From the NCBI GenBank assembly GCA_001447805.1, contig CP013099.1, positions 248,001 through 312,000 of the forward strand: a stretch of 64,000 nucleotides of DNA, in the 5' to 3' direction. Of the stretch, positions 2,279 through 55,936 are shown one piece after another. The translations under genes were made by a program, and so were the position numbers. Origin of the DNA: Candidatus Tenderia electrophaga. GTDB lineage: Bacteria > Pseudomonadota > Gammaproteobacteria > Tenderiales > Tenderiaceae. Under the pieces are notes generated by a model. That model was given only the letters and a program-made list of their open reading frames with translations. It was not told the DNA's origin and did no database searches. The first letter of the stretch is position 1. Each line of letters begins with the position of its first letter.

Positions 2279-2797
2279 ATGCGTTGCCCATTCTGCGGCG
2301 CCGACGAGACCAAGGTGATCGACTCACGTCTCGCCAATGACGGTGACAGCGTGCGCCGCCGGCGCGAGTGCCTGAGCTGCGCCGAGCGCTTTACCACCTT
2401 CGAGATCGCCGAACTGGCCTTGCCGCGCATCGTCAAACAGGACGGGGTACGCGAGGCCTTCGATGAAGACAAGCTGCGCCGCGGCATGCAACGGGCACTG
2501 GAAAAACGGCCGGTGGACACGGAAAAGGTCGAGGCCGCCGTCAGCCGTATCAAACACCAGCTGCGCGCCAGCGGCGATCGCGAACTGCCCTCGCGCCAAC
2601 TGGGCGAATGGGTGATGGAGGCCTTGCGCGAGCTGGACGGCGTGGCCTATGTGCGTTTCGCCTCGGTATACCGCAGTTTCGAGGACGTCAGCGCCTTTCG
2701 TGAAGTGATCGAACGCTATGAAAACGAACCGCCCGCCGAGGTCAAGGCGCAGCAAATCTCTCTGTTGCCCGGTAACGACAAGAAAAAGGGCAACTGA
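2279..2797 (+). CDS. nrdR: Transcriptional repressor NrdR
   Basis: ATP/dATP-sensing repressor of ribonucleotide reductase operons. The N-terminal zinc ribbon has its four cysteines in MRCPFCG (Cys3, Cys6) and CLSCAERF (Cys31, Cys34); an ATP-cone domain follows from about residue 49 ([20 protein letters not shown]). The length of 172 residues is slightly longer than the typical 150-160, from a C-terminal tail. It lies between glyA and ribD, a conserved neighbourhood that reflects shared transcription more than shared function. Confidence 0.96.
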
Positions 2798-2829
2798 GGC
2801 TGCTGCGCAAGTCAGCCCATCTTGGCCTC

Positions 2830-2835
2830 TATAAT
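2830..2835 (+). promoter_or_regulatory. Possible -10 hexamer just upstream of ribD
   Basis: A perfect TATAAT ends 7 bases before the ribD ATG at 2843. No Shine-Dalgarno-like sequence lies before that ATG and no good -35 hexamer is seen at 17 bp. If used, it would give an almost leaderless ribD mRNA. This is only a sequence match. Confidence 0.25.
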
Positions 2836-2842
2836 CTCTGTG

Positions 2843-3931
2843 ATGTTTTCCGTCGACGACCATCGCTACATGGCCCTGGCGCTGCGTTTGGCAGAGCGCG
2901 GCCTGTATACCACCGACCCGAATCCGCGCGTCGGCTGCGTGGTGGTGCGTGACGGGCGCATTGTCGGCCAAGGCTGGCATCGGCGCGCCGGTGAACCCCA
3001 CGCCGAAATCCACGCCCTGCGCGAGGCGGGTGAGCAGGCTCAGGGCGCCACCGTCTATGTAACCTTAGAGCCCTGCAATCATCACGGCCGCACCCCGCCC
3101 TGCGCCGATGCCTTGATCGAGGCCGGCGTGGCACGCGTGGTGGCGGCCATGGAGGACCCGCATGCCCGGGTCGCGGGGCAGGGCATGGCACGCCTGCAGG
3201 CGGCCGGGATCGACGCAGCCACGGGCCTGATGCAGCCCCAGGCCGAGGCGCTCAATCCCGGCTTTGTCGCGCGGCATCGCCGCGCGCGTCCCTATGTGCG
3301 CTGCAAACTCGCCATGAGCCTGGATGGGCGCACCGCCATGGCCAGTGGCGAGAGCAAGTGGATCACCTCGGCAGCGGCGCGTGCCGATGTGCAAACACTG
3401 CGGGCGCGCAGCTCAGTGATCGTCACCGGCATCGAGACCGTGCTGGCCGACGATCCGCGCATGAACGCACGGGTCGATTTTGAGGCGCGCGGGCCGGATC
3501 GGGTTGTGCTGGACAGCACCCTGCGCATGCCGCCCAGCGCGGCCATGTCGGCATCGCCCGGCAGTACCTGGGTGGCGACGCTGAGTCGGGACGAACGCAA
3601 ACGCGATGCGCTGCAACAGGCGGGACTGCGCGTGCTGGACGTGGCAGGCGGTGACGGCCGGATAGACCTGCACGCCCTGCTGAACGCCCTGGCCGATCTT
3701 GAGTACAATGAGGTGCTGGTCGAAGCCGGGCCCACCCTCAGCGGCGCCTTTGTCCTGGCGGGTTTGATCGACGAGCTGATCGTCTATCTGGCGCCCCACT
3801 TGATGGGCCATGCCGGTCGCGCCCTGCTGCATCTGCCCGGCATCGACACCATGCAGCAGCGCATCGGCTTGCGCATGACCGAATTAAAACAGGTGGGCGA
3901 GGATCTGCGCCTGACCTACCGGCCGGCCTGA
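2843..3931 (+). CDS. ribD: Bifunctional riboflavin deaminase/reductase RibD
   Basis: Carries out the second and third steps of riboflavin synthesis: deamination of the pyrimidinone, then NADPH-dependent reduction of the ribose side chain. The N-terminal deaminase half has the zinc motif HAEIHAL and PCNHHGRTPPC; the C-terminal reductase half starts near residue 140 (RPYVRCKLAMSLDGRTA). TTG (2822) and GTG (2840) codons lie upstream in frame, but homologues begin close to MFSVDDHRYM, so I use the ATG at 2843 (362 residues). The spacing to ribE is 17 bases. Confidence 0.95.
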   Translation: MFSVDDHRYMALALRLAERGLYTTDPNPRVGCVVVRDGRIVGQGWHRRAGEPHAEIHALREAGEQAQGATVYVTLEPCNHHGRTPPCADALIEAGVARVVAAMEDPHARVAGQGMARLQAAGIDAATGLMQPQAEALNPGFVARHRRARPYVRCKLAMSLDGRTAMASGESKWITSAAARADVQTLRARSSVIVTGIETVLADDPRMNARVDFEARGPDRVVLDSTLRMPPSAAMSASPGSTWVATLSRDERKRDALQQAGLRVLDVAGGDGRIDLHALLNALADLEYNEVLVEAGPTLSGAFVLAGLIDELIVYLAPHLMGHAGRALLHLPGIDTMQQRIGLRMTELKQVGEDLRLTYRPA

Positions 3932-3948
3932 CAGCAAACGGGAGTTCG

Positions 3949-4611
3949 ATGTTTACAGGAATTATAGAAGCCTCGGGCGACATTGCCGTGCTGGAAAAGC
4001 GCGCCGACGACAGCCGTCTACGCATCAATGCCGGCGGCCTCGACATGGCGGATGTGAAACTGGGCGACAGCATCGCCATCGACGGCGTGTGCCTGACCGT
4101 GGTCGATTTTGATCGCCACGGCTTCAGCGTGGACGTCTCGGCCGAGACCTTGGACAAGACCACCCTGGGCGAATATATGCCCGGCCGCAAGGTCAACCTG
4201 GAAAAGGCTCTGCAGGTCTCGGCCCGGCTCGGCGGCCATCTGGTCAGCGGTCACGTGGATGGCGTCGGCGTGATCGAATCGCGCCAACCGCTGGGCGAGT
4301 CGCTGTGTTTTCAAGTGCGGGTGCCGGACGTGCTGGCCAAGTACATTGCGGTCAAGGGCTCGGTCTGTATTGACGGCGTGAGCCTGACCGTCAACCGCGT
4401 TGAGGGCGCCGTGTTCGAGATCAACATTATCCCCCACACCGCGGCGGTGACCACCATTGGCCGCTATCAGGCCGGCCGCCGGGTCAATATCGAAGTGGAC
4501 ATCATCGCGCGCTATCTGGAACGTTTGTTATTGGGCGAACAGGCCGCTGCCCGTGGCGCCGCCGGTCTGACATTGGAGACCCTGATGCAGCATGGTTTTA
4601 TCAAGTCGTGA
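3949..4611 (+). CDS. ribE: Riboflavin synthase alpha subunit
   Basis: Dismutates two 6,7-dimethyl-8-ribityllumazine molecules to give riboflavin. The diagnostic N-terminus MFTGIIEASG is present, and the protein has two tandem lumazine-binding barrels (about 1-97 and 98-195), each with a GHVDG or SIAIDGVCLTV type motif. The length of 220 residues is normal. The ATG follows a GGGAG ribosome-binding site. Also called ribC in older E. coli usage. ribB follows at once. Confidence 0.96.
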   Translation: MFTGIIEASGDIAVLEKRADDSRLRINAGGLDMADVKLGDSIAIDGVCLTVVDFDRHGFSVDVSAETLDKTTLGEYMPGRKVNLEKALQVSARLGGHLVSGHVDGVGVIESRQPLGESLCFQVRVPDVLAKYIAVKGSVCIDGVSLTVNRVEGAVFEINIIPHTAAVTTIGRYQAGRRVNIEVDIIARYLERLLLGEQAAARGAAGLTLETLMQHGFIKS

Positions 4612-4621
4612 GCATGCAGCC

Positions 4622-5725
4622 ATGGCCTTAAATAGCGCTGAAGAAGTCATTGCGGCTATCCGCCAGGGCGAGATGGTGGTGTTGATGGATGATGAAGATC
4701 GCGAGAACGAAGGCGATCTGATCATGGCGGCCCAGTGCGTGCGTGCCGAGGATATCAACTTCATGGCCCGCTACGCCCGCGGCCTGATCTGCCTGACCCT
4801 GACGCGCGAACGTTGCCAACAGCTGCGCCTGCCGCTCATGGTGGCTGACACCAATGCCAAGCATGCCACCAATTTCACCGTTTCCATCGAGGCGGCGGAA
4901 GGGGTGACCACCGGCATCTCGGCGGCCGACCGCGCCCGCACCGTGCAGGCGGCGGTGGCCGAGGGGGCCGGCGCCGCGGACATCGTCCAGCCCGGTCATA
5001 TCTTTCCGCTCATGGCCCAGCCGGGCGGGGTGTTGTCGCGCGCCGGCCATACCGAGGCGGGCTGCGATCTGGCGCGGCTGGCGGACTTCGAACCGGCCAG
5101 CGTCATTGTCGAGATCCTCAACGAGGACGGCAGCATGGCGCGCCGGCCGCAACTGGAGGTTTTCGCCCAACAACACGGCCTGAAGATCGGCACCGTGGCC
5201 GACCTGATCAGCTATCGCCTGCAGCACGAAACGACTGTGGAGCGGGTGGCCGAGTGCCGCCTGCCCACCGAATACGGCGAGTTCCGCCTAATGGCCTACC
5301 AGGATTACCTCGGTCAAGGGTTGCACTTGGTGCTGCAAAAGGGTGAGATCGATCCTGAACAGGCGCTCTTGGTGCGCGTCCACCTGGCCGATACCTTGAC
5401 CGATCTGCTGGCGCTGCAGCGCGGCGACACCGGCCTGCCCCTGCGGGTGGCTATGCAGCGCATGCAGGCCGAGGCGGCCGGTGTGGTGGTGTTGCTGCAG
5501 CACAAGGACGAGCCGGAGGCGCTGGTCAAGCGCATCCGCGATTATCAGTTGCAGGACCGTGGTGTGAATCTGCCCCGGCCGCCGGATGCCACCGACCTGC
5601 GCGACTACGGCCTCGGCGCCCAGATCCTGTCCGACCTGGGGGTGCGCAAAATGCGCGTCATGGGGGCGCCGCGTAAATTGCACGGCCTGTCCGGTTTCGG
5701 CCTGCAAGTAGTGGAATACGTCTAG
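4622..5725 (+). CDS. ribB: 3,4-DHBP synthase fused to a degenerate GTP cyclohydrolase II domain (RibBX type)
   Basis: The first ~205 residues are 3,4-dihydroxy-2-butanone-4-phosphate synthase (DDEDRENEGD, then GHTEAGCDLARLA), which supplies the four-carbon unit for lumazine. The C-terminal ~160 residues have the fold of GTP cyclohydrolase II but lack the zinc motif CxxxxxxxxRCDCG; I see no cysteine in that half apart from one at its start. It should therefore not hydrolyse GTP, and a separate ribA is expected elsewhere. Such fusions are known in Proteobacteria as RibBX. Upstream ATG 4592 would overlap ribE; MALNSAEE at 4622 matches family starts (367 residues). Confidence 0.92.
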   Translation: MALNSAEEVIAAIRQGEMVVLMDDEDRENEGDLIMAAQCVRAEDINFMARYARGLICLTLTRERCQQLRLPLMVADTNAKHATNFTVSIEAAEGVTTGISAADRARTVQAAVAEGAGAADIVQPGHIFPLMAQPGGVLSRAGHTEAGCDLARLADFEPASVIVEILNEDGSMARRPQLEVFAQQHGLKIGTVADLISYRLQHETTVERVAECRLPTEYGEFRLMAYQDYLGQGLHLVLQKGEIDPEQALLVRVHLADTLTDLLALQRGDTGLPLRVAMQRMQAEAAGVVVLLQHKDEPEALVKRIRDYQLQDRGVNLPRPPDATDLRDYGLGAQILSDLGVRKMRVMGAPRKLHGLSGFGLQVVEYV

Positions 5726-5766
5726 GAAGGCTACAATGCCGGATTAGTAAGAACTAAGGATTCAAA

Positions 5767-6246
5767 ATGAAAGATGTGAATAGAATCGAGGGTGATTTCA
5801 ATGCGGCCGGCGCCCGCGTGGCCATCGTCGCCGGGCGCTTCAACAGCTTCGTGGTGGATCAACTGGTCAACGGCGCGTTGGATTGTCTGCTGCGCCACGG
5901 CGCCAAGGCCAAGGATATCGATATCATTCAGGTCCCCGGTGCCTACGAGTTGCCCTTGGTGGTGCAGCGCGTGGCGGCCAAGAAAAAACACGATGCCATC
6001 ATCGCGGTCGGCGCCGTAATCCGCGGCGGCACGCCCCATTTCGAATACGTCGCCGGCGAATGCTCCAAAGGCTTGGCGACGGTATCCCTGCAACACGATG
6101 TGCCCGTGGCCTTCGGTGTGCTGACCGTGGACACCATTGAACAGGCGGTCGAGCGCTCAGGCACCAAGGCCGGCAACAAGGGTGTGGAAGCGGCCATGTC
6201 GGCCATCGAAATGATCAATGTGCTCAAGGGCGTTGATCAGCTCTAG
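5767..6246 (+). CDS. ribH: 6,7-dimethyl-8-ribityllumazine synthase
   Basis: Condenses the ribitylamino-pyrimidinedione with DHBP to form lumazine; forms icosahedral or pentameric assemblies in the cytosol. Signatures include [10 protein letters not shown], the PGAYELPL loop, [13 protein letters not shown] and the VAFGVLTVD strand. The length of 159 residues is typical. An AAGGA-like ribosome-binding site lies ahead of the ATG. nusB follows after 21 bases, the standard ribH-nusB pairing. Confidence 0.97.
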
Positions 6247-6267
6247 GCTTTTTTAAGGAGAATATTT

Positions 6268-6699
6268 TTGAGTCACGCGCGTACCATGGCACGTCGCTGT
6301 GCCGTCCAGGCACTGTATCAGTGGCAGATCACCGCCCATGACGTGGAAGACATCTATCAGCAGTTCATGCTCGAACGCAACATGACCAAGGTCGATGTGG
6401 CGATGTTCAAGGAGCTGCTGTCCGGCGTGACCCGCGAGCTGGAAAAACTGGATGCAAGCATCCAGCCCTATCTCGATCGCGATATCTCCGAGGTGGACCC
6501 GGTGGAGCGCGCCGTGCTGCGCCTGGGTACCTATGAGCTGATGTACAAGCCCGATGTGCCCTATCGCGTTGTCATCAATGAGGCCCTGGAAGCGGTGAAG
6601 ACCTTCGGCGCCGAGCAGGGCCATCGCTATGTCAACGGTGTGCTCGACAAGGTCGCCCAGCAGCTGCGCCAGCCGGAAGTCCAGCGTCGCCGCAGCTAG
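6268..6699 (+). CDS. nusB: Transcription antitermination factor NusB
   Basis: RNA-binding helical protein that forms the boxA complex with NusE for rRNA antitermination. The family motif near residue 7 (ARRCAVQALYQW) and the C-terminal block VDPVERAVLRLGTYEL followed by VINEALEAVKTFG are present. The start is TTG at 6268, chosen because AAGGAG lies 8 bases upstream at the right spacing; the next ATG (6286) has no ribosome-binding site and would cut the first helix. A terminator follows, so this is probably the end of the rib transcript. Confidence 0.93.
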   Translation: MSHARTMARRCAVQALYQWQITAHDVEDIYQQFMLERNMTKVDVAMFKELLSGVTRELEKLDASIQPYLDRDISEVDPVERAVLRLGTYELMYKPDVPYRVVINEALEAVKTFGAEQGHRYVNGVLDKVAQQLRQPEVQRRRS

Positions 6700-6742
6700 A
6701 AGCAAATGTCGCGCAGCGACAGCTTGTCCCTCTCCCCTTTAT

Positions 6743-6785
6743 GCCCCGTGCGTGCTCCGGGAGCACCCACGGGGCGTTTGTTCTG
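6743..6785 (+). terminator. Rho-independent terminator after nusB
   Basis: GCCCCGTG at 6743-6750 pairs with CACGGGGC at 6768-6775, and the inner GTGCTC/GAGCAC pair extends the stem across one mismatch to a 3-base loop. A short T-rich tail (GTTTGTTCT) follows. It separates the rib-nusB run from thiL-pgpA. Confidence 0.7.
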
Positions 6786-6827
6786 GAAGGGTATAAAAGG
6801 GTGGGGGACATATCCGGTCACCTAATA

Positions 6828-6849
6828 GGACTCCACTTGGGACTCCACT
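6828..6849 (+). repeat. Tandem 10-base repeat touching the thiL start codon
   Basis: GGACTCCACT occurs at 6828-6837 and again at 6840-6849, with a 12-base period; the second copy abuts the thiL ATG. No standard Shine-Dalgarno sequence is seen at normal spacing. It may be a local slippage duplication or a translational control element. Confidence 0.5.
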
Positions 6850-7815
6850 ATGGCACTCTCTGAATTCGAACTCATCGCGCGCTATTTTTATCGCGCCCCG
6901 GCTCACGACGATGTGGAGCTGGGCATCGGTGACGATGCCGCCGTGGTGAGTGTGGCGCCGGATCACTCCCTGGTGATGGCCTTGGATACCCTGGTGGCCG
7001 GGGTCCATTTCCCGGCAGACAGTCGCGCGGATGATATCGCCTACAAGGCCCTGGCCGTGAATCTGAGCGATATGGCGGCCATGGGCGCGCATGCCAACTG
7101 GATGTTGTTGGGACTCACCTTGCCGCAGCTGGACGAGGCATGGCTGGATGCATTCAGTCGCGGCCTGAAATCATTGGCCGATGAGTACGGCGTGGTCTTG
7201 ATCGGCGGTGATACCACCCGCGGTCCGCTGACGGTGACGGTCCAGATCAACGGGCTGGTGCCGCAGGGCCAGGCCTTGAAACGCAGCGGTGCTCAAGCGG
7301 GTGATCTGATCTATGTCAGCGGCCAGCTGGGCGATGCCGGCCTGGGCTTGCAACTGGCGTTGCGACAGATTCAACTGGATTTGCCGCCGGCGCGACGCGA
7401 CTATTTCCTCCAACGCCTGCAGCGTCCCAGCCCGCGACTGGCGCTGGGCCGAGCCTTGGGCGGGGTGGCCAGCGCCGCCATCGATATCTCCGACGGCCTG
7501 CTGGCCGATCTGGGCCATATCCTCGACGCCAGTGGCGTCGGCGCCGAGATTCATCTGGAGCAATTGCCCGTGGCGCCGGAAATTATCGGGCTCGGGCAGC
7601 AGGGCTGGTCCCTGCCGTTGTGCGCCGGTGACGATTACGAGTTGTGTTTCACCGTCCCGCCCGAACGCGGCGCCTTGCTCGAGGCGCGGCTGCGCTCGGT
7701 TGATTGTCCCTGTCGCTGCATCGGCCGCATCGAAACGCACAGCGGCCTTCGGGTGTTGTACAACGGTGAGAAGGTCGAGACTGACAGTTTTAAGGGATAT
7801 CGGCATTTTGACTAA
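6850..7815 (+). CDS. thiL: Thiamine-monophosphate kinase
   Basis: Phosphorylates thiamine monophosphate to the active diphosphate. It has the AIR-synthase-like fold; the N-terminal motif EFELIARYF, the metal-binding GIGDDAAVV, the loop MVALDTLVAGVHF-like DTLVAGVHFP, LIGGDTTRGP, and the C-terminal ISDGLLADLGH and CAGDDYELCF are all intact. The length of 321 residues is normal. The stop codon overlaps the start of pgpA by 8 bases, the conserved thiL-pgpA coupling. Confidence 0.96.
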   Translation: MALSEFELIARYFYRAPAHDDVELGIGDDAAVVSVAPDHSLVMALDTLVAGVHFPADSRADDIAYKALAVNLSDMAAMGAHANWMLLGLTLPQLDEAWLDAFSRGLKSLADEYGVVLIGGDTTRGPLTVTVQINGLVPQGQALKRSGAQAGDLIYVSGQLGDAGLGLQLALRQIQLDLPPARRDYFLQRLQRPSPRLALGRALGGVASAAIDISDGLLADLGHILDASGVGAEIHLEQLPVAPEIIGLGQQGWSLPLCAGDDYELCFTVPPERGALLEARLRSVDCPCRCIGRIETHSGLRVLYNGEKVETDSFKGYRHFD

Positions 7816-8287
7816 GCGTATTCCGGGTCTGAATCTGGCCAACCCCGTTCATCTGTTGGCCTTCGGGTTCGGCAGCGGGGTGATCCCCAAGGCGCCGGGA
7901 ACCTGGGGGACCTTGGTGGCCGTGCCGCTGTATGTGTTGCTGCAGGGCGTGTCGATGGCGGTCTATCTGAGCCTGGTGTTGGCGTTACTGCTGCTGGGTA
8001 TTTGGCTGTGCGACGTGGCGGCGCGGGACCTCGGCGTCCATGACCATCCCGGTATTGTCTGGGACGAAATCGTGGGCTATCTGATCACCATGATCGCGGC
8101 GCCGGCCGGCTGGCCGTGGTGGCTGGCGGGCTTCGTCCTGTTTCGCCTGTTCGACATTCTCAAACCCTGGCCCATCAGCGCCATTGACAAGGGCGTGGCT
8201 GGCGGCTTGGGTATTATGCTTGATGACATCCTGGCCGGCCTGATGGCCTTGGCCTGTCTACAGCTATGCGCCTGGCTGCTGCTCTGA
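7808..8287 (+). CDS. pgpA: Phosphatidylglycerophosphatase A
   Basis: Inner-membrane enzyme that dephosphorylates phosphatidylglycerophosphate in phospholipid synthesis. Conserved blocks HLLAFGFGSG, PKAPGTWGTL, HDHPGIVWDEIVGY and FRLFDILKPWP match PgpA, with about four hydrophobic segments. No ATG is available near the N-terminus; the best start is TTG at 7808 (TKRIPGLNLANPVHLL), inside the thiL stop and preceded by AAGGGA about 9 bases upstream. That gives 159 residues. Its last 24 bases overlap the 3' end of the convergent GGDEF/EAL gene. Confidence 0.93.
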   Translation: MTKRIPGLNLANPVHLLAFGFGSGVIPKAPGTWGTLVAVPLYVLLQGVSMAVYLSLVLALLLLGIWLCDVAARDLGVHDHPGIVWDEIVGYLITMIAAPAGWPWWLAGFVLFRLFDILKPWPISAIDKGVAGGLGIMLDDILAGLMALACLQLCAWLLL

Positions 8288-10690
8288 GCTGAGGCCGGCC
8301 TCGTTGCGCCAACCGGTGTGCAGCAGCCATTGGCGTAAGTCCGTCGCGCGCGCCGGGGGATGGATGTGAAAGCCCTGCGCCAGGTCGCAGCCCATTTCCC
8401 TGAGCAGCTCCAGGGTCGCTTCATTGTCCACCCCTTCGGCGATGACCTGATGGCCCATATTGTGGGCCAGGTCGATGGTGGAGCGCACAATCACCTTGTC
8501 CTCGTTGTGTTCCAGCATGGCCTGGACGAAGGACTGATCGACCTTGATCTCGTTTACCGGCAGCTGTTTCAGATACGCCATGGAGGAATAGCCGGTGCCG
8601 AAATCGTCGATGGAGAGTTTCACGCCCATGTCATGCAGTTGTGACAGGGTCTGCATGGCCTGCATGGGATCGTACATCAAGGCGCGTTCGGTGATTTCCA
8701 GCTGCAGTTGTTCGGCCTCAAGCTGCCAGTGCTGCAGCAGTTCGCCGATATGTTGGCAGAGCTCGGTGTCGTGCAGACTGCGGGCCGACAGGTTGACGGA
8801 AATGCGCAATCTGAGGCCGGCGCTGTTCCATAGCTGCGCTTGCCGCAGCGCCTCGCGCAGCACATAGGCAGTCAATTCACGGATGTGCCCGGTCTGTTCC
8901 GCCAGCAGGATGAAGTCGTCCGGCTGGATCAGGCCTTTGTCCGGGTGCTGCCAGCGTGCCAGGGCCTCGACGCCGATGACCTGGTCGCTGCGCAGATCGA
9001 TGGTGGGTTGGTAGTGCAGCACAAACTCCTCTTGCTGCAGGCCGCGGCGCAACTCGCCCGCCATGGAGAGACGGCTCAGGCTGTGCTCATCCAGATCCGG
9101 TCGGTAAAGGGCGAAATCGATATTGGAGCGCTTGGCCACGTACATGGCCACGTCGGCCTGGCGCATCAGGGTGCTGGCGTCTTCGCTGTTCTGCGGGAAC
9201 AGGGAGATGCCCATGCTGATGCCGATATGTATGTTCTGGTCTTCAAAGATGAAGGGCAGATCGATGGCGGCGGCGATCTTGCTGGCGGCCTGGGTGACCT
9301 GCTCCGGGGCTTCGATATCGGGCAGTAGGATGGCGAATTCGTCGCCGCCCAGGCGCGCCACGGTGTCCGAGTCACGCAATACGCCGCGCAGGCGCACGGC
9401 CACTTGTTGCAGCAACAGATCGCCGAAGTGGTGGCCCAGGGTGTCGTTGATTTCCTTAAACCGGTCCAGGTCGCTGATCATCAGGGCGATGGAGCGGCCC
9501 TCGCGTTTGGCGCCGCGAATGGCCTGGTGCAAGCGGTCATGCAGCAACAGGCGATTGGGTAGGCTGGTAAGGGAATCGTGCAGGGCCTGGTGGCGCAACT
9601 CCTTGTTGGCCTCGGCCAGCTCGCGGGTACGCTTGATGACGCGCCGCTCCAGATCCTCCTGCAGGGACTTGATCTCGGCCTCGGCCTGTTTGCGTTCACT
9701 GATGTCGCGGCAAACGATGATAAAGATCGAGCTGTCCAGCTGGCAGATTTCATTGATCGAGGCCTCGACATAAAAGCGTTCCCCGGTCTTGCGTTTGCCC
9801 AGGGTTTCGTAGGGGGCGGCTTGCTCGATATCGAGCGGCGTATCGTTGTCGCCGCCGGCGAAGATGTCGGTAAATGAATTGCTGAACAACAGGTGGATAT
9901 CTTGGCCCACCACCTCGCTGGCGTTGTAAGCGAAGCTGCGCTCGGCGGCCAGATTGAATGACAGAACGTTGCCGTTCTTGTCCACCGTGATCAAGGCGTC
10001 GGCGACATTGGCCATGATGGTGCTCAGGCGTGCCTCGCGGGTGGCCAAGGCCTCGCTTTGATTCACCAGTTCGGCACGCATGGATTCCAGATCATGGGCC
10101 AGTTGACGGAGCTCGCGAATGCCGCTATGCAGTTCCAGGCGACGTGAATGTTTACCGGCGGCGATATCGCGCGCCGCCTCACGCAGGCGGATCAAGGGAC
10201 GGGTCAATTGCGGCCCCATGATGGCGGCCATCAACACCGCCAAACAGATATAGCCCAGGACGATGTAGAGACCGTAGCGTTGCGCCTGGCCGATGAGGCC
10301 CAGGGTGTCGCGTTCGTCATAGCCAAGCTGAAGGATGTAGTTTTGGCCGCTGATCTTGAGCGGCACGGCGATATGATAGGTGTGATCGTCCTGGTCGCCG
10401 AAGGCAGCATCGGTCTCGATGGCGGTGATGGAACCGTCCTGAATATTCAGATGAATCAGATTGAGCTTGCCCGCGCGGATGTCGGCGAGATCTTGCGGCG
10501 GTCGTGGGTAATGTTCCAAGGTGGCGGCCAGCTGCAGCGCGCTGGTCATGCTGCGATCCAGGAATTGTTGTTGGAAGTGCTGCGCCAGGGCCGGCAGGAT
10601 AAGGACGAAGACCACGGACCCCAACAGGCCGTGTATGAGCAATTCACCCAATACCATCCGGCTGGTGAATCTGTTCAGCAAACCGCCCAT
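8264..10690 (-). CDS. Membrane PAS-GGDEF-EAL protein (c-di-GMP synthesis and/or degradation)
   Basis: An 808-residue signalling protein. The N-terminus has a membrane helix (about 15-36), a periplasmic sensor region to about 138, a second helix (141-158), a HAMP linker, a PAS domain (about 220-335), a GGDEF domain (368-530) and an EAL domain (545-800). The cyclase motif GGDEF is intact at 448-452, with an RxxD inhibitory site (RDSD, 439-442). The phosphodiesterase motifs EALARW (575) and DDFGTGYSS are intact too. Both activities are possible by sequence; which dominates cannot be told. It is convergent with pgpA and overlaps it. Confidence 0.93.
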   Translation of the reverse strand: MGGLLNRFTSRMVLGELLIHGLLGSVVFVLILPALAQHFQQQFLDRSMTSALQLAATLEHYPRPPQDLADIRAGKLNLIHLNIQDGSITAIETDAAFGDQDDHTYHIAVPLKISGQNYILQLGYDERDTLGLIGQAQRYGLYIVLGYICLAVLMAAIMGPQLTRPLIRLREAARDIAAGKHSRRLELHSGIRELRQLAHDLESMRAELVNQSEALATREARLSTIMANVADALITVDKNGNVLSFNLAAERSFAYNASEVVGQDIHLLFSNSFTDIFAGGDNDTPLDIEQAAPYETLGKRKTGERFYVEASINEICQLDSSIFIIVCRDISERKQAEAEIKSLQEDLERRVIKRTRELAEANKELRHQALHDSLTSLPNRLLLHDRLHQAIRGAKREGRSIALMISDLDRFKEINDTLGHHFGDLLLQQVAVRLRGVLRDSDTVARLGGDEFAILLPDIEAPEQVTQAASKIAAAIDLPFIFEDQNIHIGISMGISLFPQNSEDASTLMRQADVAMYVAKRSNIDFALYRPDLDEHSLSRLSMAGELRRGLQQEEFVLHYQPTIDLRSDQVIGVEALARWQHPDKGLIQPDDFILLAEQTGHIRELTAYVLREALRQAQLWNSAGLRLRISVNLSARSLHDTELCQHIGELLQHWQLEAEQLQLEITERALMYDPMQAMQTLSQLHDMGVKLSIDDFGTGYSSMAYLKQLPVNEIKVDQSFVQAMLEHNEDKVIVRSTIDLAHNMGHQVIAEGVDNEATLELLREMGCDLAQGFHIHPPARATDLRQWLLHTGWRNEAGLSSEQQPGA

Positions 10691-48714: not shown

Positions 48715-49938
48715 TTAGGGCTTGTCCGGATATCGGTAAGGGAATTGGATGGTAAATACGGTTCCCCTGCCGAGCTGAGAGTCGCTCGAGAGCCCCGCAT
48801 CCAGCAGCTCGCAAAGCCGTTTCACAATGGTCATGCCGATTCCCTCACCTTTGTAGCAGGCGGATTCCGACACGTCCCCGTCCTCTTCGCTGCGATCAGG
48901 ATCGTCCAACTCTTTCGTGATGGGGGCACCGACGGATTCCCGCATGCCCGGCCCGGTGTCAGCGATACGCAGCGTCCAATGCAGTTCTTGCGCCTCCCAC
49001 TCGACGCGGATTTCGCCATGCTCGGTATATTGCAAGGCATTGACGAGCAGGTTCTGGGCGATGCGCCGGAGTTTGTTCAGATCGGTCTGCACCACGAGCT
49101 CATCCGGCCCTGCGCTGAGCAAGGCCAGGCCTTTCTCGTCGACCGTCGGCCGAAATTCCGAGACAAGCCGCTTGATAACGTCGGCGATATTGATCTCACA
49201 CAGCTCGAGCGTGTCGGCACCGGATTCGAGCCGGGAAAGATCGAGCAATGAATCCAGCATGCCGCGTAGGGATTCGACGCTCTGGTCGAGAGAGGTCAGC
49301 GCCCTGCTTGTCGATGCGTTGCCGCCGTTGGATGTCTTGAGGACATCGGTGAGCAATCTGACGGTGGCAAGGCCGCCGCGAATATCGTGCGCCGCCTCGC
49401 GCAGCATCGCGCCGCGCGTCCGGGTGAGCGTGTCAAATTGACCTTTCATGCTGTTCAGGTCACGTGCCACGCTGGCGGCCTCGGCACGACGGAGTTCGTC
49501 GAAGCGCGCCACGCTGCCGGTGGTGGCCTCCGCCATGAACTCGGCCAGGGTGTCCATGGCGATCGTCCGTTCCTCGGCACTGCCTTGGTGTTGGTGCAGG
49601 TTGAAAAATTCATCGATCACCCCCACGAGCACGCGGTTCAATATGCCCCAGTCGCGAATCAACTGTTTCAGGCTGAAGCCCTGTTTCCAACGGTGGTGCC
49701 CATGCTTGGATACCTCGGATGCGATGGTTCGCAGCGAGAAATCGGTGGATGGCTGTGCCCCTAACGCCCGACAAAACCCATCGAGCGCGGCGGGGAGGTT
49801 GTTGCGGAATTGAGCGCGGGTAAGGCGGCTGACGATCTCCATGGTGTCGTCTTTTTCACACGCCCGCCACCAACGGTCAACGATATCGGATTGCTGTTGC
49901 CCGATATGGTCTGCCAAGGTTGCCAATACACCGCTCAC
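48715..49938 (-). CDS. Orphan sensor histidine kinase with RsbRD-type N-terminal domain
   Basis: A soluble 407-residue kinase without membrane helices. The N-terminal ~150 residues match the RsbRD/RsbR-N helical sensor fold (VDRWWRA, then KQGFSLKQLIRDWGILNRV). The phosphoacceptor is His184 in EAAHDIRGG; the ATPase motifs are NLLVNALQY, DTGPGM and GEGIGMTIVKRL. The start is GTG 49938, because GAGGAG lies 6 bases upstream; the TTG at 49959 lies before that site. No response regulator gene is adjacent, so the partner is unknown. Confidence 0.9.
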   Translation of the reverse strand: MSGVLATLADHIGQQQSDIVDRWWRACEKDDTMEIVSRLTRAQFRNNLPAALDGFCRALGAQPSTDFSLRTIASEVSKHGHHRWKQGFSLKQLIRDWGILNRVLVGVIDEFFNLHQHQGSAEERTIAMDTLAEFMAEATTGSVARFDELRRAEAASVARDLNSMKGQFDTLTRTRGAMLREAAHDIRGGLATVRLLTDVLKTSNGGNASTSRALTSLDQSVESLRGMLDSLLDLSRLESGADTLELCEINIADVIKRLVSEFRPTVDEKGLALLSAGPDELVVQTDLNKLRRIAQNLLVNALQYTEHGEIRVEWEAQELHWTLRIADTGPGMRESVGAPITKELDDPDRSEEDGDVSESACYKGEGIGMTIVKRLCELLDAGLSSDSQLGRGTVFTIQFPYRYPDKP

Positions 49939-50061
49939 GCGAATCTCCTCTGTCCGCAAATAACGATGTCCAGTATAGGCCTATTTCTGCGCCGGTAAAC
50001 CTTGGCCGCGCCGGGCGCCGAGACGCCTCATGCGCGTGTGTGGATTATGAGACGCGTCCCT

Positions 50062-50388
50062 TTAGTCGCGAAACTTCACCAGCCGCGTCACCTGGATGTC
50101 GGAAATGAACACCACCCCCGAGTGTTCGTTATAGAAAGGCGCCAGCCCTTCCAGGATGGGCTTGACCAGTTCTTCCGGGACGGCGGCGATGATCATGATC
50201 AACACATCATCCTCGTTGAACATCAGATGACCTTCGTGGAAACCGTGACTGCCCTTGCCCGACAGGTTGTTGATGATGGTGTAGCCTTTGACCCCGGCGC
50301 GGTCGAGTAAGTCGGTGGCCAGGCCCTGGTGTTCGCCGCTGAGGATGATTTCGAGTTTTTTCAGCGGGCTGAAATTGAGGTTCTTCAT
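50062..50388 (-). CDS. PII-like regulatory protein of the carbon-uptake operon (CPII type)
   Basis: A 108-residue protein with a PII/GlnB-like ferredoxin fold (KKLEIILSGEHQGLATDLLD; HSGVVFISDIQVTRLVKF). It lacks the uridylylation T-loop tyrosine of GlnB. It matches my memory of the CPII proteins found beside bicarbonate transporters and carboxysome genes, which bind adenine nucleotides and bicarbonate. The ATG lies two bases past the dabA stop, with GGGAG inside the dabA end, so it is coupled to dabA. Confidence 0.82.
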   Translation of the reverse strand: MKNLNFSPLKKLEIILSGEHQGLATDLLDRAGVKGYTIINNLSGKGSHGFHEGHLMFNEDDVLIMIIAAVPEELVKPILEGLAPFYNEHSGVVFISDIQVTRLVKFRD

Positions 50389-50389
50389 A

Positions 50390-53300
50390 CTAGGCTGACT
50401 CCCTTTGTTGTGCATGGGTGACGGCGGACAGCGATCGGCGCTGCCAGTCGTCTTTGTCATAGATGTGGGCGGTGTTGCGTTCCGGGTCGATGATCAGCAA
50501 GCGAATCCAGCCGTTGCGCACCAATTGCTTGACCGCGGCCACCCCTTCGATGGCATGCCAGGCATGTTCGAAGGGGGCTTCGATGACGGTCAGCAGCCGG
50601 ATCGGCTGGTGATAGGGGCGTCCCTGCTCAAGGACCGTCTGCGCGGGCAGGCCGGTGCGCAGGTCGCTGAGGTTGCCGGTCATGACACCGAAGCGCCCCG
50701 AGACGTTGTGATAGGCCTTGCTGCCGCTGCCGAAGCGTTCATTGTCGACGGTGGAAAAATAGTGCTCCATGTTGATCCACTGGCCCACCACCAGCGGCCC
50801 GGTGAGAATGCTTTCCAGCAGCCGGTGGCGGGGGTCGGCGTGGTAATCGTAGGAATGCAGAAAGGCGCGCCCGTCCAGCGGCAGTTGCCGGGTAAGATTG
50901 CGCCGACCGATGATGAAATAGGCATTGCCCGACAGGCCCCACTCGGGCCGTACCTGCGACCAGTCCATGGCGTTGCGATGGGCCAGGCGGTGGGCCGCGC
51001 CGGGATCGAGCGGGGCCGGCGTCGATTGCAATTCCGGTATGCGCTCCTGGGCGCACAGGCGCGAGGCGCCGGTCAATCCCTTGCGCAGGCGATCCAGATA
51101 CACCACGTGGGAGGGCGGCAGCAGGTCGAGATCGAACAGCCTGAGTTCGTCGGTGGTGGTGTCGTGCAGCGCCGCTATAAACCAGCTGTCGTCCGGGATC
51201 TCCAGGCCCTGCTCGCGCAGCTTGTTGCGCACCTGGGCCTTGTTGGCCATCTGGGCCAGCGCACGGGCATTGGTCAGGCCGTGATTGCCGCCGCAGGCGC
51301 CGCAGTCCAGGGCCGACTCGTAGGGATTGTTCTCCGAGCGGCTGCCGTGACCGACCAGCAGAACGAAGCGCGAGAAATCCTGTTGCAGGCCGATGGAGCG
51401 CAGCGCCTGGCCGACAAAATTGACCTGCTCGTCCAGGGTAAAGCCGATGCGTCCCAGTTGTTCCATCTGCAGTTGGGCAAAGGCGGGATCAATGCGGTAG
51501 ACCTGGCGCAGGCGGCGGATGAAGGCTTGTTCGTCGTCGGCGAGCTGCGGACAGGCCCGGCGCAGCGCCGGCGTTGCCGCGGCGTGGCCCAGCGCCGCTT
51601 CGCGCAGCTCGCGCACCATGTCGTCGGTAATCGCTTCGGCTTCGAGCCCGCATTCCTGTTCGAGGGCCTTGGCCACCACGGCGCGCTGTACCGCGCGCAC
51701 GATGGAGTCGGCCTGATCGCGATCCAGCTTGTCTAGCAACAGATGGGTGTTCGGTTTGTCGCGGTGCAGGCCCTGACGCCAGCGGTTGTAGCTCTGCGGC
51801 ATGAGCGTCTTGCCCACCATGTCCAGGCCGAACAGCATGCCGATGGCCTCGACGGTGACGTACGGCGTCAGCACCGACTCCTTGAGTTCGTGCAACAGCT
51901 TTTCCAGCGCCGTGAGCGCCTCCACGTCCTGGCGCGGTGCGGCGGCCATTTCCAGCACCAGGTGTTTGGGCTTGAGCAAAACCGGGCAAAGGTGGGTTTC
52001 GCTGCCCTTGCCCAATTCCATGAAGCTGATGGGGACGCCGAAGAAACCGGCGATGCCGAAGGTCTGGTAATCGCCGGCGCTTTCCAGGTGACGGCGAATC
52101 CGCTCCGAGCGTGTGTCGATGCAGAACAGCGCCTGGGCAAAGGGACGTTTGTCGCGCGCGGGCGGCGGCGCCAGGTTGACCCGCTGCAGCAGCGCATCCA
52201 TGGCCTGCGCCTCCATGGCATGCAGCCAGATCATGCCTTCTTCAGCTTCGGCATGTTGCAGGGTGCGTAACAGTTCGGCCAGTTGTCGGCGCGACAATGA
52301 CTCAAGCGCGGCGCCGGCGCCGGCCGTCTCGGCAAGGCGGCGCAGGCGTTGCGCCTGGGCCTCGGCTTCGTGGCGGCGCTTGGCCTGCGCATATTCGGCG
52401 AACAGTTTCTCGACGGCACGGGGGCGTGCGCGTGCCAGTGTCTGTTCGACCCGTTGGGCATAGGCCGGCAAGACGGCGCCGCTGTGCAGTTCATGGCGCA
52501 ACCAGGTTTCCTGCGGGCGCTCGTCGACGGCCGCTTCAATGGCGGTGCGCTCGCTGGGGATGCCTTCGCGTCCGCGTTCGCTGAGCAGCGCCAGGGCCAG
52601 GGTCAGGCGGATGGCCATGAAGTCGACCAGATCGGCCGGATAGCGTCGGCTCCAGTGATAGTGCTTGGCGCTGGCGCGCCAGCGGATGAAACCGGCCCAG
52701 CCGTGCAGGCGCGCCAGCTCGCGTGAAAAGCAGGCGACCCAGCGATCCTCGGGAACGCCCAGGGTTTGCATCACGAAGGCGATCACCGCTTCCGGGCTGT
52801 TGCCCTTGGCCAGCACCTCTTTGATGTGCAAACCGCGCAGGAACAGTCGGCCGTTACGCGTCGCCAGTTCACGCCAGGCGCTAAACAGGCCCTGCTTGCG
52901 CCCCGGCATGCGCCACACCGACTGGCCTTCGTCAAAGAAATCGAGACAGCTTTTGATCACCAGCTCATCCAGCTCGGCGCCGATTTCGGTGCCATAGAGG
53001 GTGTCCACGGTTTCGTAAAATGGCTGGTCACCCAGCAGTGCCTCACGCAGCTTCGTCGTAAGCGCGGCCGGGTCGACGGCGGTATCCATTTCGGCGGGCT
53101 GCCGCTGGAGCGCGGCATGCACGTCGTCGGCTTCGGCCAGGGAACATGGCGACGCTAACGCTTGTTGGCTGCGCGTCAGCAGGGTCATTAACCAGTGCGA
53201 CAGATCGATGCCGGGGATGGAAGCTTGTTGCGCCACGAAGCGCTCGATGTTGTGCGCCAGCGCGTCACGGTCCACCTTGCCCTGGGCCAGATAATGCTGG

Positions 53301-53500
53301 TAATCGCGGCGCGGCAGGAAGCCGCGGCCGTGAAACAGCCGCGCGCCGGTTTCCACCGCCTGGGGAAAGGGCAGGTGCTCCAGGCCGTGCAGCGGGTTGT
53401 GATGAATGAACGAGCGCATGGGCCAGAAAAACGGAATGGCTTCGCCGGCCACATAAATCATAGTGCGGATTTGCAGCGTTTGACCCAGCGGTAAGGTCAT
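50390..53500 (-). CDS. dabA: DabA, zinc-containing subunit of the DAB inorganic carbon pump
   Basis: A 1036-residue member of the former DUF2309 family. Together with DabB it takes up CO2 or bicarbonate, using a beta-carbonic-anhydrase-like zinc site. The four ligand positions can be seen: Cys460 and Asp462 (FCIDTRSE), His718 (VGHGSRSENNPYESALDC) and Cys733 in CGACGG. The start is ATG 53500, overlapping the upstream gene as ATGA with GGAGGA ahead; longer in-frame extension upstream has no family match. Cytoplasmic, membrane-attached through its partner. Confidence 0.94.
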   Translation of the reverse strand: MTLPLGQTLQIRTMIYVAGEAIPFFWPMRSFIHHNPLHGLEHLPFPQAVETGARLFHGRGFLPRRDYQHYLAQGKVDRDALAHNIERFVAQQASIPGIDLSHWLMTLLTRSQQALASPCSLAEADDVHAALQRQPAEMDTAVDPAALTTKLREALLGDQPFYETVDTLYGTEIGAELDELVIKSCLDFFDEGQSVWRMPGRKQGLFSAWRELATRNGRLFLRGLHIKEVLAKGNSPEAVIAFVMQTLGVPEDRWVACFSRELARLHGWAGFIRWRASAKHYHWSRRYPADLVDFMAIRLTLALALLSERGREGIPSERTAIEAAVDERPQETWLRHELHSGAVLPAYAQRVEQTLARARPRAVEKLFAEYAQAKRRHEAEAQAQRLRRLAETAGAGAALESLSRRQLAELLRTLQHAEAEEGMIWLHAMEAQAMDALLQRVNLAPPPARDKRPFAQALFCIDTRSERIRRHLESAGDYQTFGIAGFFGVPISFMELGKGSETHLCPVLLKPKHLVLEMAAAPRQDVEALTALEKLLHELKESVLTPYVTVEAIGMLFGLDMVGKTLMPQSYNRWRQGLHRDKPNTHLLLDKLDRDQADSIVRAVQRAVVAKALEQECGLEAEAITDDMVRELREAALGHAAATPALRRACPQLADDEQAFIRRLRQVYRIDPAFAQLQMEQLGRIGFTLDEQVNFVGQALRSIGLQQDFSRFVLLVGHGSRSENNPYESALDCGACGGNHGLTNARALAQMANKAQVRNKLREQGLEIPDDSWFIAALHDTTTDELRLFDLDLLPPSHVVYLDRLRKGLTGASRLCAQERIPELQSTPAPLDPGAAHRLAHRNAMDWSQVRPEWGLSGNAYFIIGRRNLTRQLPLDGRAFLHSYDYHADPRHRLLESILTGPLVVGQWINMEHYFSTVDNERFGSGSKAYHNVSGRFGVMTGNLSDLRTGLPAQTVLEQGRPYHQPIRLLTVIEAPFEHAWHAIEGVAAVKQLVRNGWIRLLIIDPERNTAHIYDKDDWQRRSLSAVTHAQQRESA

Positions 53501-54255
53501 GACAGTCCTCCGATACCATAGACGCCGGCCGCCAATAGCAACAATAGGGCGAGCGCGTAGCTCCGAGTGGCGGCGTGGCTCAGATCCTCGGGCCAGGGCT
53601 CGGCGGCGGGGCCCGCGATCAGCCCCTGCAGCAGACGGGCGCCGGCCCAACTCCACAATAGCCACACGCCGGCCACGCCGAAGCCGATAGCCGGCATGCT
53701 CGGCACGGCTTCGACGAGGGTGGCGAGCATGATGAAAAAGGTCGGGAACAGGGGCGTGGCGATGATTGCCAGCACCACGAAGACCAGTATGCCCGCAAGG
53801 CGCGGGGTGGACTGAGCGAGGCCGCCATACAGTCCGGTATAGGCTGCGCCGAAGCGGCGTTCCAGACCGCGACCGAGTAGGGCGAGCAGGACCAGCGGGG
53901 CACTGAAACCGAGGGCGTATAATTGCAGGGTGGTGATGGGGGTATCACCCTGCAGCGACACCCAGAGCAAGGCCCAGGCGGAGGTGGCCAGAAAACCGAT
54001 CCACTGCCCCACGTCGCGCAGCACCAGGGCGCGCAGGGCGTATAGGCCCGCGGTGATCAGCGCCAGCGGCACCAGCCAGCCCGGTGGCGGGGTGTTCAGG
54101 CTGGAGACGAGCAGCAGGCCGAGCTGCGGCCAGAGCAGCAATAGTGCCGCGCGCAGCACCACCTGCCGGCAGTGCCCCAGCAGCAGATTGAAGCCCATGC
54201 TCAGGGGAAAGAGGGGCAGGAAGATCCCCGCCATCAGGTAAAGTAAGGCCTCCAT
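53497..54255 (-). CDS. Unassigned polytopic membrane protein of the DAB operon
   Basis: 252 residues with about seven hydrophobic helices (for example YLMAGIFLPLFPLSMGFNLL, ILVFVVLAIIATPLFPTFFI). The pattern weakly recalls the C-terminal half of NuoM/NuoN-type proton-channel subunits (the ATPLFPTFF segment), but I do not see the conserved lysine helices clearly. It sits between dabB (1-base gap) and dabA (ATGA overlap), so it is surely co-translated with them. A third subunit or assembly factor is likely; function unknown. Confidence 0.75.
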   Translation of the reverse strand: MEALLYLMAGIFLPLFPLSMGFNLLLGHCRQVVLRAALLLLWPQLGLLLVSSLNTPPPGWLVPLALITAGLYALRALVLRDVGQWIGFLATSAWALLWVSLQGDTPITTLQLYALGFSAPLVLLALLGRGLERRFGAAYTGLYGGLAQSTPRLAGILVFVVLAIIATPLFPTFFIMLATLVEAVPSMPAIGFGVAGVWLLWSWAGARLLQGLIAGPAAEPWPEDLSHAATRSYALALLLLLAAGVYGIGGLS

Positions 54256-54256
54256 C

Positions 54257-55936
54257 TCAGATCCACCTCAACCAGAGATTGAGCCGTCCCGCGATTGAAA
54301 GCAGGCTGCGGCTCAGGCGGGCATATAGATCGCTGATATAGAATTCGCGCGAGATCAGGGCATAGAAGCTCAGCCACAGCCGGCCGGCGAATTTGCCCTT
54401 GCGATTGCCGTTGCGATCGGTGAAGTAGGCGAGCCCCCAACCGAAGATGATCACCAGCGAAACCAGCACCATCAGCACGTCAAACCAGAACAGATCGATG
54501 TCCGCCGCGGCATATAGCTGTTCACGGAAGGCCGGGTCGGGATAGAGGAACAGATCGAAGGCATGGCTGATTAATACATAGCCGAGGACCACCACGGCAA
54601 AGGAGCAAATGCTCAGGATCACCAGGCGGCGCAGATTCTGTCTGCGCATCCGGTAGGTGGCGAAAATCAGTTGCGCCCCGGTGATCCAGCCGAAGAACAG
54701 CAGCACGATGGCGCTTTGCTTCTGAAAATAATCCTGGGCTACCAGCCAGTGCGCCGTGACCAGGATGATGATGGGCACGGCCAGAGTGATCGCGGCCATC
54801 AGCAACCAGGGCAGGCGTTGACGTGCCAGGCGGCGTTCCACCACGAAGGTATACAAATCCTCCTTGGGTACGCCGTCGTCCTTGCGCGCGGCGTTGATGA
54901 CGCCGCCCGAGCCGAGAAACAGTGTGCCCTTGAACAGGCCGTGGGCGATGAGGTGATAGATGGCCAGCGAGAAGGCGCCGATGCCGCACTCCATGATCAT
55001 GAAGCCCATTTGCCCCATGGTGGAATAGCCCAAGGATTTCTTGATGTCGTTCTGGGTGAGCATCAATACCGAACCGATCACCGCGGTGAACAGGCCCATG
55101 ATGAATACCCAGTGCAACACGTCGGAGCTGTGTACGAAGATTGGTGCGAAGCGGTTGATCAGGAAGCCGCCGGCATTGACGATGCCGGCATGCATCAGGG
55201 CCGAAACCGGTGTCGGCCCGGCCATGGTGTAGGGCAGCCAAGTGTGCAACAGAAACTGCGCCGAGCGGGCGAAGGCGGCCAGGGCGATCAGCCCCGCGAC
55301 TGCATCCGCCAGCGGCATGCCCAGTACTTGGTGCGCGTCCGGCGCGGCGCTGATCTGTTCGAAGATGAGCGGCAGTGACCAGGTGCCATAGGCCTGATAC
55401 AGCAGCACGGCGGCGATAAGCAGCGGCAGGTCGCCGATGCGGTAAGTGATCTTGGTCCAGAAGGCATAACGAAAGGCCGAGGCATCACGGGTGTTATGAC
55501 CCAGCAGAAAGTAGAGCAACACGCCCACCAGGTGCCAGGCGATGAGCAGGGTGAGCAGATCGCCGGCGGCCACCATGATCAGCAGGGTGGCGGTCATGAG
55601 ACCGAGCAGTACGAAAAAGCGCACGTAGCCCGGTTCTTCCGCCATGTAACGTAGCGAGAAGATGTGCACGATCAGGCTGATGCCGGCAATCACCAGCGCC
55701 ATCAGGCTGCTGAGCGGATCGTGCAGCAATGTTAACCAGGTATCGTGCAGGGCGACTGTATGCGCAGCGTGCCCGCTCAGTGTCAGCCAGAGTGCGACCG
55801 CGGCGGCGACGAAGGCGAGCAATGTACCGATCACACTGATGCGTACTACCTGCCGACCCAAACGGCGCGCCAGCAGATAGGTCAACAGCGCCGCGAGCAG
55901 CGGTAGTGTGGGTATCAGTAGGATGATCTTTTCCAT
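54257..55936 (-). CDS. dabB: DabB, NuoL-like cation-coupled membrane subunit
   Basis: A 559-residue proton-conducting membrane protein of the NuoL/MrpA family with about 13 helices (Proton_antipo_M core: HTWLPYTMAGPTPVSALMHAG, then LTQNDIKKSLGYSTMGQMGFM). Beside a DUF2309 gene it is best read as DabB, which couples cation flow to DabA-driven CO2 hydration, rather than a respiratory subunit; no other nuo genes are near. AGGTGA lies before the ATG. First gene of the operon. Confidence 0.92.
   Translation of the reverse strand: MEKIILLIPTLPLLAALLTYLLARRLGRQVVRISVIGTLLAFVAAAVALWLTLSGHAAHTVALHDTWLTLLHDPLSSLMALVIAGISLIVHIFSLRYMAEEPGYVRFFVLLGLMTATLLIMVAAGDLLTLLIAWHLVGVLLYFLLGHNTRDASAFRYAFWTKITYRIGDLPLLIAAVLLYQAYGTWSLPLIFEQISAAPDAHQVLGMPLADAVAGLIALAAFARSAQFLLHTWLPYTMAGPTPVSALMHAGIVNAGGFLINRFAPIFVHSSDVLHWVFIMGLFTAVIGSVLMLTQNDIKKSLGYSTMGQMGFMIMECGIGAFSLAIYHLIAHGLFKGTLFLGSGGVINAARKDDGVPKEDLYTFVVERRLARQRLPWLLMAAITLAVPIIILVTAHWLVAQDYFQKQSAIVLLFFGWITGAQLIFATYRMRRQNLRRLVILSICSFAVVVLGYVLISHAFDLFLYPDPAFREQLYAAADIDLFWFDVLMVLVSLVIIFGWGLAYFTDRNGNRKGKFAGRLWLSFYALISREFYISDLYARLSRSLLSIAGRLNLWLRWI

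Follow-up and report, generated by a model that had tools for sequence, protein, structure and literature searches.

Within the 64,000 nucleotides of contig CP013099.1 from Candidatus Tenderia electrophaga analyzed here (the window), four genes, described in an earlier note as a coupled run of dabB, a third membrane gene, dabA and a PII-like gene, raise the question of what the third membrane protein is and of what the PII-like protein controls. The run itself is borne out: all four genes lie on the minus strand, separated by single nucleotides or overlapping. The first, dabB (54257-55936; ORF list and Pfam), encodes a NuoL-like membrane subunit of 559 aa, DabB1. One nucleotide after its stop the third gene begins (53497-54255, 252 aa; ORF list, profile and fold comparison), whose product is called here DabT, a name coined for this work; its stop overlaps the start of dabA (ATGA). 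dabA (50390-53500) encodes DabA1, of 1036 aa, and one further nucleotide separates its stop from cpII (50062-50388; Pfam and PDB match), encoding a PII-like regulator of 108 aa. The dabA ORF opens with a GTG at 53665; the ATG at 53500 gives the 1036 aa product and the residue numbering of the earlier note, and with this start Cys460, Asp462, His718 and Cys733, all claimed there, are each found. The PII-like ORF spans 50062-50460, the most likely start of the gene being at 50388.

Pfam assigns DabA to PF10070 (E 2.5e-261), the adjoining DabB to Proton_antipo_M (E 7.1e-50) and the PII-like protein to P-II (E 2.7e-21), and finds no family for the third gene at E 0.001. A scan for promoters gave 1 site, against 2.2 in shuffled sequences, and one for terminators gave 7, against 5.3, neither number being informative. 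A histidine kinase gene (48715-49959) was considered as a further member of the operon and rejected: the matches listed for 52 related loci include none to it better than E 1e-30. The order dabB, third gene, dabA is kept far beyond chance, since the three are adjacent in it at 28 of the 29 further loci where the third gene has a homologue; in the exception, L105, the end of the contig falls inside dabA. By its sequence the operon is identified as a three-subunit DAB1-type CO2-capture system, of an already known kind.

In Halothiobacillus neapolitanus the DAB1 gene order was reported in 2015 (PMC4633670). According to PMC4633670 and PMC13144422, the system comprises hneap_0907 (DabA1), hneap_0908 and hneap_0909 (DabB1), plus a PII/SbtB homologue, and shares with the present operon the order nuoL-like gene, transmembrane hypothetical gene, DUF2309 gene, PII gene; the DUF2309 protein is 1046 aa long there and 1036 aa here. 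The same four genes are found at L143, a locus labelled H. neapolitanus. In that organism cbbO and cbbQ flank the genes (PMC4633670); here, roughly 66 kb lie between the operon and one RuBisCO gene, and roughly 415 kb between it and the carboxysome cluster.

The catalytic residues of DabA are in place. The zinc site (C460, H718, C733) and the D462-R464 dyad of DabA are accompanied by S465 and by E551 of the membrane finger. C460, D462, R464, S465 and E551 align with C351, D353, R355, S356 and E444 of DabA2 from H. neapolitanus DAB2 (PDB 9rd0), and H718 and C733 with its H524 and C539, the positions being counted by eye; the functional roles of the zinc-site, Asp-Arg and finger residues in DabA2 are described in PMC13144422. 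In an alignment of 22 DAB1 DabA sequences, all 22 have the same residue at each of these seven positions. The two systems also share the proton-path positions of DabB. DAB2, in contrast, has two subunits, while a third subunit and CPII are added here; the present DabA is longer between the finger and the second zinc motif, and the present DabB has His and Arg at the positions of DabB2 Ile151 and Lys235.

The third protein, described as hypothetical in the papers cited here, matches the C-terminal half of a NuoM/ND4-type antiporter subunit, an identity which is new here and which is supported by a confident structural model together with sequence profiles. The AF2 model of DabT (pLDDT 95.8, pTM 0.92) superposes on residues 223-487 of E. 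coli NuoM over 251 of 252 residues, with Z 26.0 and rmsd 2.3, so that the whole length of DabT is covered. The modelled fold is a complete C-terminal antiporter half with two interrupted helices; unlike NuoM, DabT, beginning at the equivalent of residue 223, is devoid of about 220 N-terminal residues, corresponding to the N-terminal half (TM1-6), and of the ionisable residues of the proton path. The DabT profile matches NuoM/NuoN/Mrp-type proteins with E 4e-11 and a probability of 97%; for the longer DabT forms (411-439 aa) the match to this set extends over 334 columns, with E 2e-14. An unrelated membrane protein is ruled out by the profile and fold comparisons, and a copy of part of DabB by hhalign, which gives 2.4% probability against the DabB profile versus 97% for the NuoM/NuoN/Mrp set; a joint alignment of DabB and DabT, which set the DabT rows onto DabB, was left out. 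Searches in Pfam at E up to 10 returned two chance viral families, and a PDB sequence search one chance match.

Related loci show how the subunit varies. The scan kept the best 80 matches, corresponding to 77 loci, and its tallies are not frequencies; counts across the two collections are not independent, because three locus pairs (L079/L150, L085/L136, L087/L160) appear to be the same contigs present in both. In the DabT/CPII tally, L161 is counted as short, though its stretch is cut, L142 as none, its second dabA copy having been used, L189 and L190 were classed manually as long, and four fusions were assigned by name. Phyla outside Pseudomonadota carry a longer DabT, or a DabT fused to DabB, the fusion being to the DabB C-terminus at 4 loci among the matches listed. 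Among the same matches, L158, L164, L166, L167, L180 and L181 have a long DabA and CPII with no DabT within the examined stretch, and L183, L184, L188, L192, L193 and L197 have a short DabT with no CPII: with six loci of each kind, both links have exceptions outside the class.

The TM5 position of DabB (H135 here, Glu144 in the NuoL counterpart) varies with the neighbouring genes. Glu is kept at long-DabA loci with further antiporter-type genes; Gln is found with long DabT (Nitrospirota/Nitrospinota), mostly His with half-form DabT, and mostly Ile, Leu or Val in two-gene DAB2. In this comparison two L110 rows owe their DabT250 label solely to an antiporter fragment of 137 aa that lies at the start of the contig, and in the L097, L121, L134 and L135 rows a short DabA is matched with DabB from the neighbouring DAB1 operon. 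L190 is an exception, having a DabT-like neighbour and yet retaining the Glu. In a quick DabA tree (82 of 126 rows, with one in three DabT250 rows taken and the window's own row kept, after removal of sequences below 700 aa and of repeats of residues 301-600), L120, the second copy of L142, L182 and L201, which bear a DAB2 label by default, cluster with the long-DabA sequences; of these four, L182 and L201 come from cut contigs.

The PII-like protein is, by sequence, close to CPII rather than to GlnB or SbtB. It matches PDB 5d4n/5d4l over 105 residues with E 4e-49, and SbtB (slr1513) weakly, with E 7e-5; a model built from 28 CPII sequences finds the window gene with E 9e-68 and the next PII protein of the genome with E 6.5e-9. 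The 5d4n/5d4l entries are CPII of Thiomonas intermedia, which is reported to be regulated by bicarbonate and to bind adenylate and bicarbonate. Because of this match, control of DAB by bicarbonate and adenylates through CPII may fairly be inferred. Among 274 genomes of the class (Gammaproteobacteria), 31 have CPII, in all 31 beside DabA, and 36 further genomes bear DabA and lack CPII. This tight link suggests that the regulator is part of the pump, and not of the carboxysome alone.

The earlier note took the operon as the main sign of autotrophy, and called for a search for RuBisCO, carboxysome and CbbR genes. Autotrophy stands on gene content, two RuBisCO large subunits being present; the absence of any carbon-fixation pathway, which the note held would, together with the lack of a CO2-dependent phenotype, speak against its reading, is not what the genome shows. 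One RuBisCO gene is accompanied by a LysR gene, cbbQ and a gene for a VWA-domain, CbbO-like protein. The other is followed by genes for CsoS2, CsoSCA, an EutN/CcmL shell protein, a PCD-like protein, SbtA and a PII-family protein, and by a LysR gene, with three BMC-domain matches nearby; the separate PII-family gene beside SbtA distinguishes this genome from the CPII and SbtB systems. The LysR genes beside both clusters are inferred to be CbbR. A DAB locus that includes CPII or the third subunit does not on its own point to the Calvin cycle: 16 of 26 genomes with such loci, among the matches listed, have no RuBisCO match (5 have a weak and 5 a strong one). No strong match is present in the 19 non-proteobacterial genomes with such loci among these matches, many of them MAGs of uncertain completeness.

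Taken together, the locus probably encodes a carbonic anhydrase of DAB1 type that works in one direction, draws on the membrane potential, and comes with a PII-type regulator of its own and with DabT as a half-antiporter brace. By homology with DAB2, DabA would hydrate CO2 at its buried zinc site, DabB would conduct protons and the DabA transmembrane finger (E551) would complete the proton path; the bicarbonate formed in the cytoplasm most likely feeds the carboxysome of this RuBisCO-bearing cell. DabT would most likely lie against the TM5 face of DabB, at the site of the neighbouring antiporter subunit in complex I, as a proton-inert brace and not a second pump; the AF2 model of a natural DabB-DabT fusion (L177; mean pLDDT 72.9) is too weak to place the DabT domain. 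CPII would most likely sense bicarbonate and adenylates and throttle the pump by touching it directly, in the way that SbtB acts on SbtA. For DAB2, the proton-motive drive is a published hypothesis, and the purified complex does not spontaneously hydrate CO2: both points were counted against the model.

The brace may not be inert, because position 75 of DabT retains Arg or Lys in 42 of 45 sequences. If Arg75 paired with the C-terminal helices of DabB or with the DabA finger, DabT, whose fold as the second antiporter half is complete, would be an active second ion path, adding a half-channel and giving an ion-to-CO2 ratio different from that of DAB2. We consider this improbable: the NuoM TM7 Lys, TM8 Lys and TM12 Glu, which map by eye to positions 12/13, 44 and 176, have no ionisable counterpart in DabT. 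All 45 sequences lack one at 12, 13 and 176, and 44 of the 45 lack one at 44. Another alternative would make the complex a sodium-bicarbonate symporter and not a carbonic anhydrase, as proposed for MpsAB, which belongs to the same gene families and is argued to use sodium (PMC13144422). This is very improbable, as the zinc-site and Asp-Arg residues needed by DAB2 in vivo are all kept, DAB2 is active without sodium (PMC13144422), and the genome has a separate SbtA.

A rather unlikely reading, though less so than these two, is that CPII is merely co-transcribed, its target being the carboxysome, the RuBisCO activase or transcription. A CsoSCA match in 27 of the 31 CPII genomes agrees with it. 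The other four (G043, G048, G163, G184) have no CsoSCA match, however, and CPII adjoins DAB in non-proteobacterial genomes devoid of a strong RuBisCO match. The apparent loss of CPII at L079/L150 was ruled out: there an in-frame fusion joins DabA and CPII (contig JAKACW010000025), the one case of this kind, which may be an assembly error and otherwise speaks for the pump as target. DAB1 may tentatively be seen, with chances slightly short of even, as an 'antiporter-and-a-half' CO2 pump, whose complex-I-like neighbours form a series, present in full, reduced to one proton-dead subunit (long or half) or absent; DabT would be a remnant, retained because of the half that faces DabB, and the assembly, not the carboxysome, would be what CPII regulates.

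The operon type being already known, what is new here is a testable subunit assignment for the third DAB1 protein. Many chemolithoautotrophs obtain inorganic carbon through DAB systems, which are also under discussion as components for engineering CO2 concentration. The assignment of DabT as a stripped NuoM-type half tells what to co-express and where DabT may sit, and indicates in what way a proton pump of modular build can be reduced to its docking half.

The operon, which lies on the minus strand, has four genes: dabB (54257-55936), dabT (53497-54255; a membrane gene encoding 252 aa, named here), dabA (50390-53500; 1036 aa, counted from the ATG) and the PII-like gene cpII (50062-50388). The first two genes are 1 nt apart, dabT and dabA overlap by ATGA, and dabA and cpII are again 1 nt apart; the four genes are coupled. 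Alignment to DabA2, from the two-subunit DAB2 system of H. neapolitanus (PDB 9rd0; numbering from PMC13144422), shows that the DabA residues singled out in the earlier note, Cys460, Asp462, His718 and Cys733, correspond indeed to C351, D353, H524 and C539; Arg464, Ser465 and Glu551 correspond to R355, S356 and the finger residue E444. All seven are invariant in the 22 aligned DAB1 DabA sequences (22/22). DabB is identical to the genome's own NuoL at R166, D169, H249, K299, H328, H332 and K336, while His135 replaces a Glu and Arg224 a Lys. The reading as a DAB operon was correct: this is a well-formed DAB1, i.e. three-subunit, operon, of an already known kind, in a genome with carboxysome genes. 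Directly 3' of cpII, on the same strand, lies a histidine kinase gene with an RsbRD_N-type sensor domain (48715-49959), for which conservation in related loci was not found.

The genome contains one match to DabA, two copies of the RuBisCO large subunit, three BMC matches and six PII-family matches. One RuBisCO copy is flanked by a LysR gene, cbbQ and a VWA protein; the other is followed by CsoS2, CsoSCA, an EutN/CcmL protein, a PCD-like protein, SbtA, a PII-family protein and a LysR gene, the SbtA and PII-family genes being located, after the carboxysome genes, at L015:17224-18624. The earlier note would have abandoned its proposal had any carbon-fixation pathway been absent together with a CO2-dependent phenotype; since RuBisCO and carboxysome genes are present, gene content leaves it standing. 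The genome encodes two uptake systems for inorganic carbon, and a PII-like gene accompanies each of them. In G128 and G242, both sampled members of the same family, DabA was not found, though RuBisCO is present in both (and CsoSCA in G128): DAB1 is patchy in the family.

In PMC4633670 (2015), the H. neapolitanus order is nuoL-like, transmembrane hypothetical, 1046-aa DUF2309, PII/SbtB; in the 2026 DAB2 structure paper (PMC13144422), DAB1 is a three-subunit system including a 'small hypothetical transmembrane protein', and in a 2026 carboxysome review (PMC12918739) the transporter is given as DabA plus DabB. In the literature searched, no assignment of the third protein was found; one may exist in print.

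No Pfam family matches DabT at E 0.001, and its single NCBIfam match, to NuoM (344-487), is weak (E 5.5e-5; 22 bits, where the cut-off is 550). The AF2 model, built from 45 sequences (mean pLDDT 95.8, pTM 0.92), features interrupted helices at residues 12-19 and 164-171. In VIA-align, 251 of its 252 residues align with E. coli NuoM 223-487 (Z 26.0, rmsd 2.3, 15% identity) and with bovine ND4 195-459 (Z 30.1, rmsd 2.4). These spans are TM7-TM14, TM7 and TM12 being the interrupted helices of an antiporter subunit. Foldseek ranks complex I chains first (best E 3.1e-8), and the DabT profile matches a set of seven NuoM/NuoN/Mrp-type proteins encoded by this genome (E 4.3e-11, probability 97%). Positions 12/13, 44 and 176, mapped by eye from the profile alignment to the TM7 Lys, TM8 Lys and TM12 Glu of NuoM, are ionisable in none of the 45 sequences, except for one at position 44; 42 of the 45 have Arg or Lys at residue 75. 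Fold, profile matches and emptied ionisable positions identify DabT as an antiporter subunit's second half, stripped down. The gene adjoining dabA in records from Nitrospirota and Nitrospinota mostly encodes 411-439 aa and carries the DabT part at the C-terminus; the alignment of these long forms to the antiporter set spans 334 columns (E 2e-14). DabB and DabT form a single chain, with DabT last, in four records, titled as Thermocrinis (L177), Aquificota (L199), Planctomycetaceae (L204) and Acidobacteria (L205).

In a quick, unrooted DabA tree, 17 rows from two-gene DAB2 loci fall together on one side, the 13 from multi-antiporter loci share one branch (100), and DabT loci form a separate set (92). 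Homology to a full-length family suggests that the half-form arose by truncation.

The interface facing NuoL is formed by the C-terminal half of NuoM. In NuoL, the pairs Glu144/Arg175 and Asp178/Lys229 are close to the surface that contacts the adjacent subunit (PMC13144422, section 11). DabT may sit at the matching face of DabB. DabB 135, the counterpart of Glu144, varies in a pattern, which is no test, the rows being related and partly duplicated. It is Glu in every row of L107-L118. Among the two-gene loci L121-L129, nine in number, eight have Ile, Leu or Val and one has Ser. All 14 readable long-DabT rows have Gln, while the 67 short-DabT rows, two mislabelled L110 rows excluded, have His (45), Tyr (7), Phe (6), Gln (6) or Asn (3). 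The four fusions have His, Gln, Gln and Ser. The L107-L118 loci are a different, larger DAB type within the same class, with long DabA, without CPII and, in 8 of 12, with at least two antiporter-type neighbours. Counter-cases exist: His occurs in Nitrospira paralogues lacking DabT (L158, L164, L166, L167, L181), and L190 keeps Glu despite a DabT-like neighbour. The model of a natural DabB-DabT fusion was too weak for placing DabT. The five Nitrospira records carry a DabB-DabA-CPII operon; as L181 and L165 are titled as the same isolate, operon types with and without DabT can coexist.

Among the 274 sampled genomes of the class, DabA is found in 67, DabT in 30 and a CPII match (E 1e-10) in 32, with 76-100% identity in 31 and 30% in one (G051). 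This group of 31 comprises all 30 DabT genomes and G163, whose contig begins within dabA. By coordinates, CPII adjoins DabA in all 31, within about 1 kb, and in G036 it lies within DabA's reading frame; the remaining 36 DabA genomes have no such CPII. CsoSCA is present in 27 of the 31 and RuBisCO in 30, the exception being G048 (88% complete). On one MAG contig (L079:4241-7576, the same as L150:6935-10270), CPII follows DabA in a single frame, replacing its last ~45 residues; this arrangement is either genuine or an artefact of assembly.

A wider scan covered 77 loci from the best 80 matches listed, 14 of them cut on one side. Among these matches, CPII accompanies short DabT in 30 loci, long DabT in 12 and fused DabT in one; in nine, including two from Legionella and L142, CPII is present and DabT was not found beside the dabA taken (the second copy, in L142). 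Short DabT without a separate CPII occurs in seven, including the fusion L150, fused DabT without CPII in two, and neither in two. L142, a Nitrosomonas eutropha Nm 57 record, features dabA and cpII twice in succession (2392-10440). In the Legionella records L202 and L206 the DAB is short and has two genes, followed downstream by a CPII-like gene; a RuBisCO match is absent from one genome and weak in the other. In 26 genomes from these loci, 19 of them from non-Proteobacteria phyla by title, RuBisCO is absent from 16, weak in five and strong in five, all proteobacterial; the absences are soft, as MAGs among these genomes may be incomplete.

For specialists, the interest lies in what the third subunit is and in how tightly DabA and CPII are linked.
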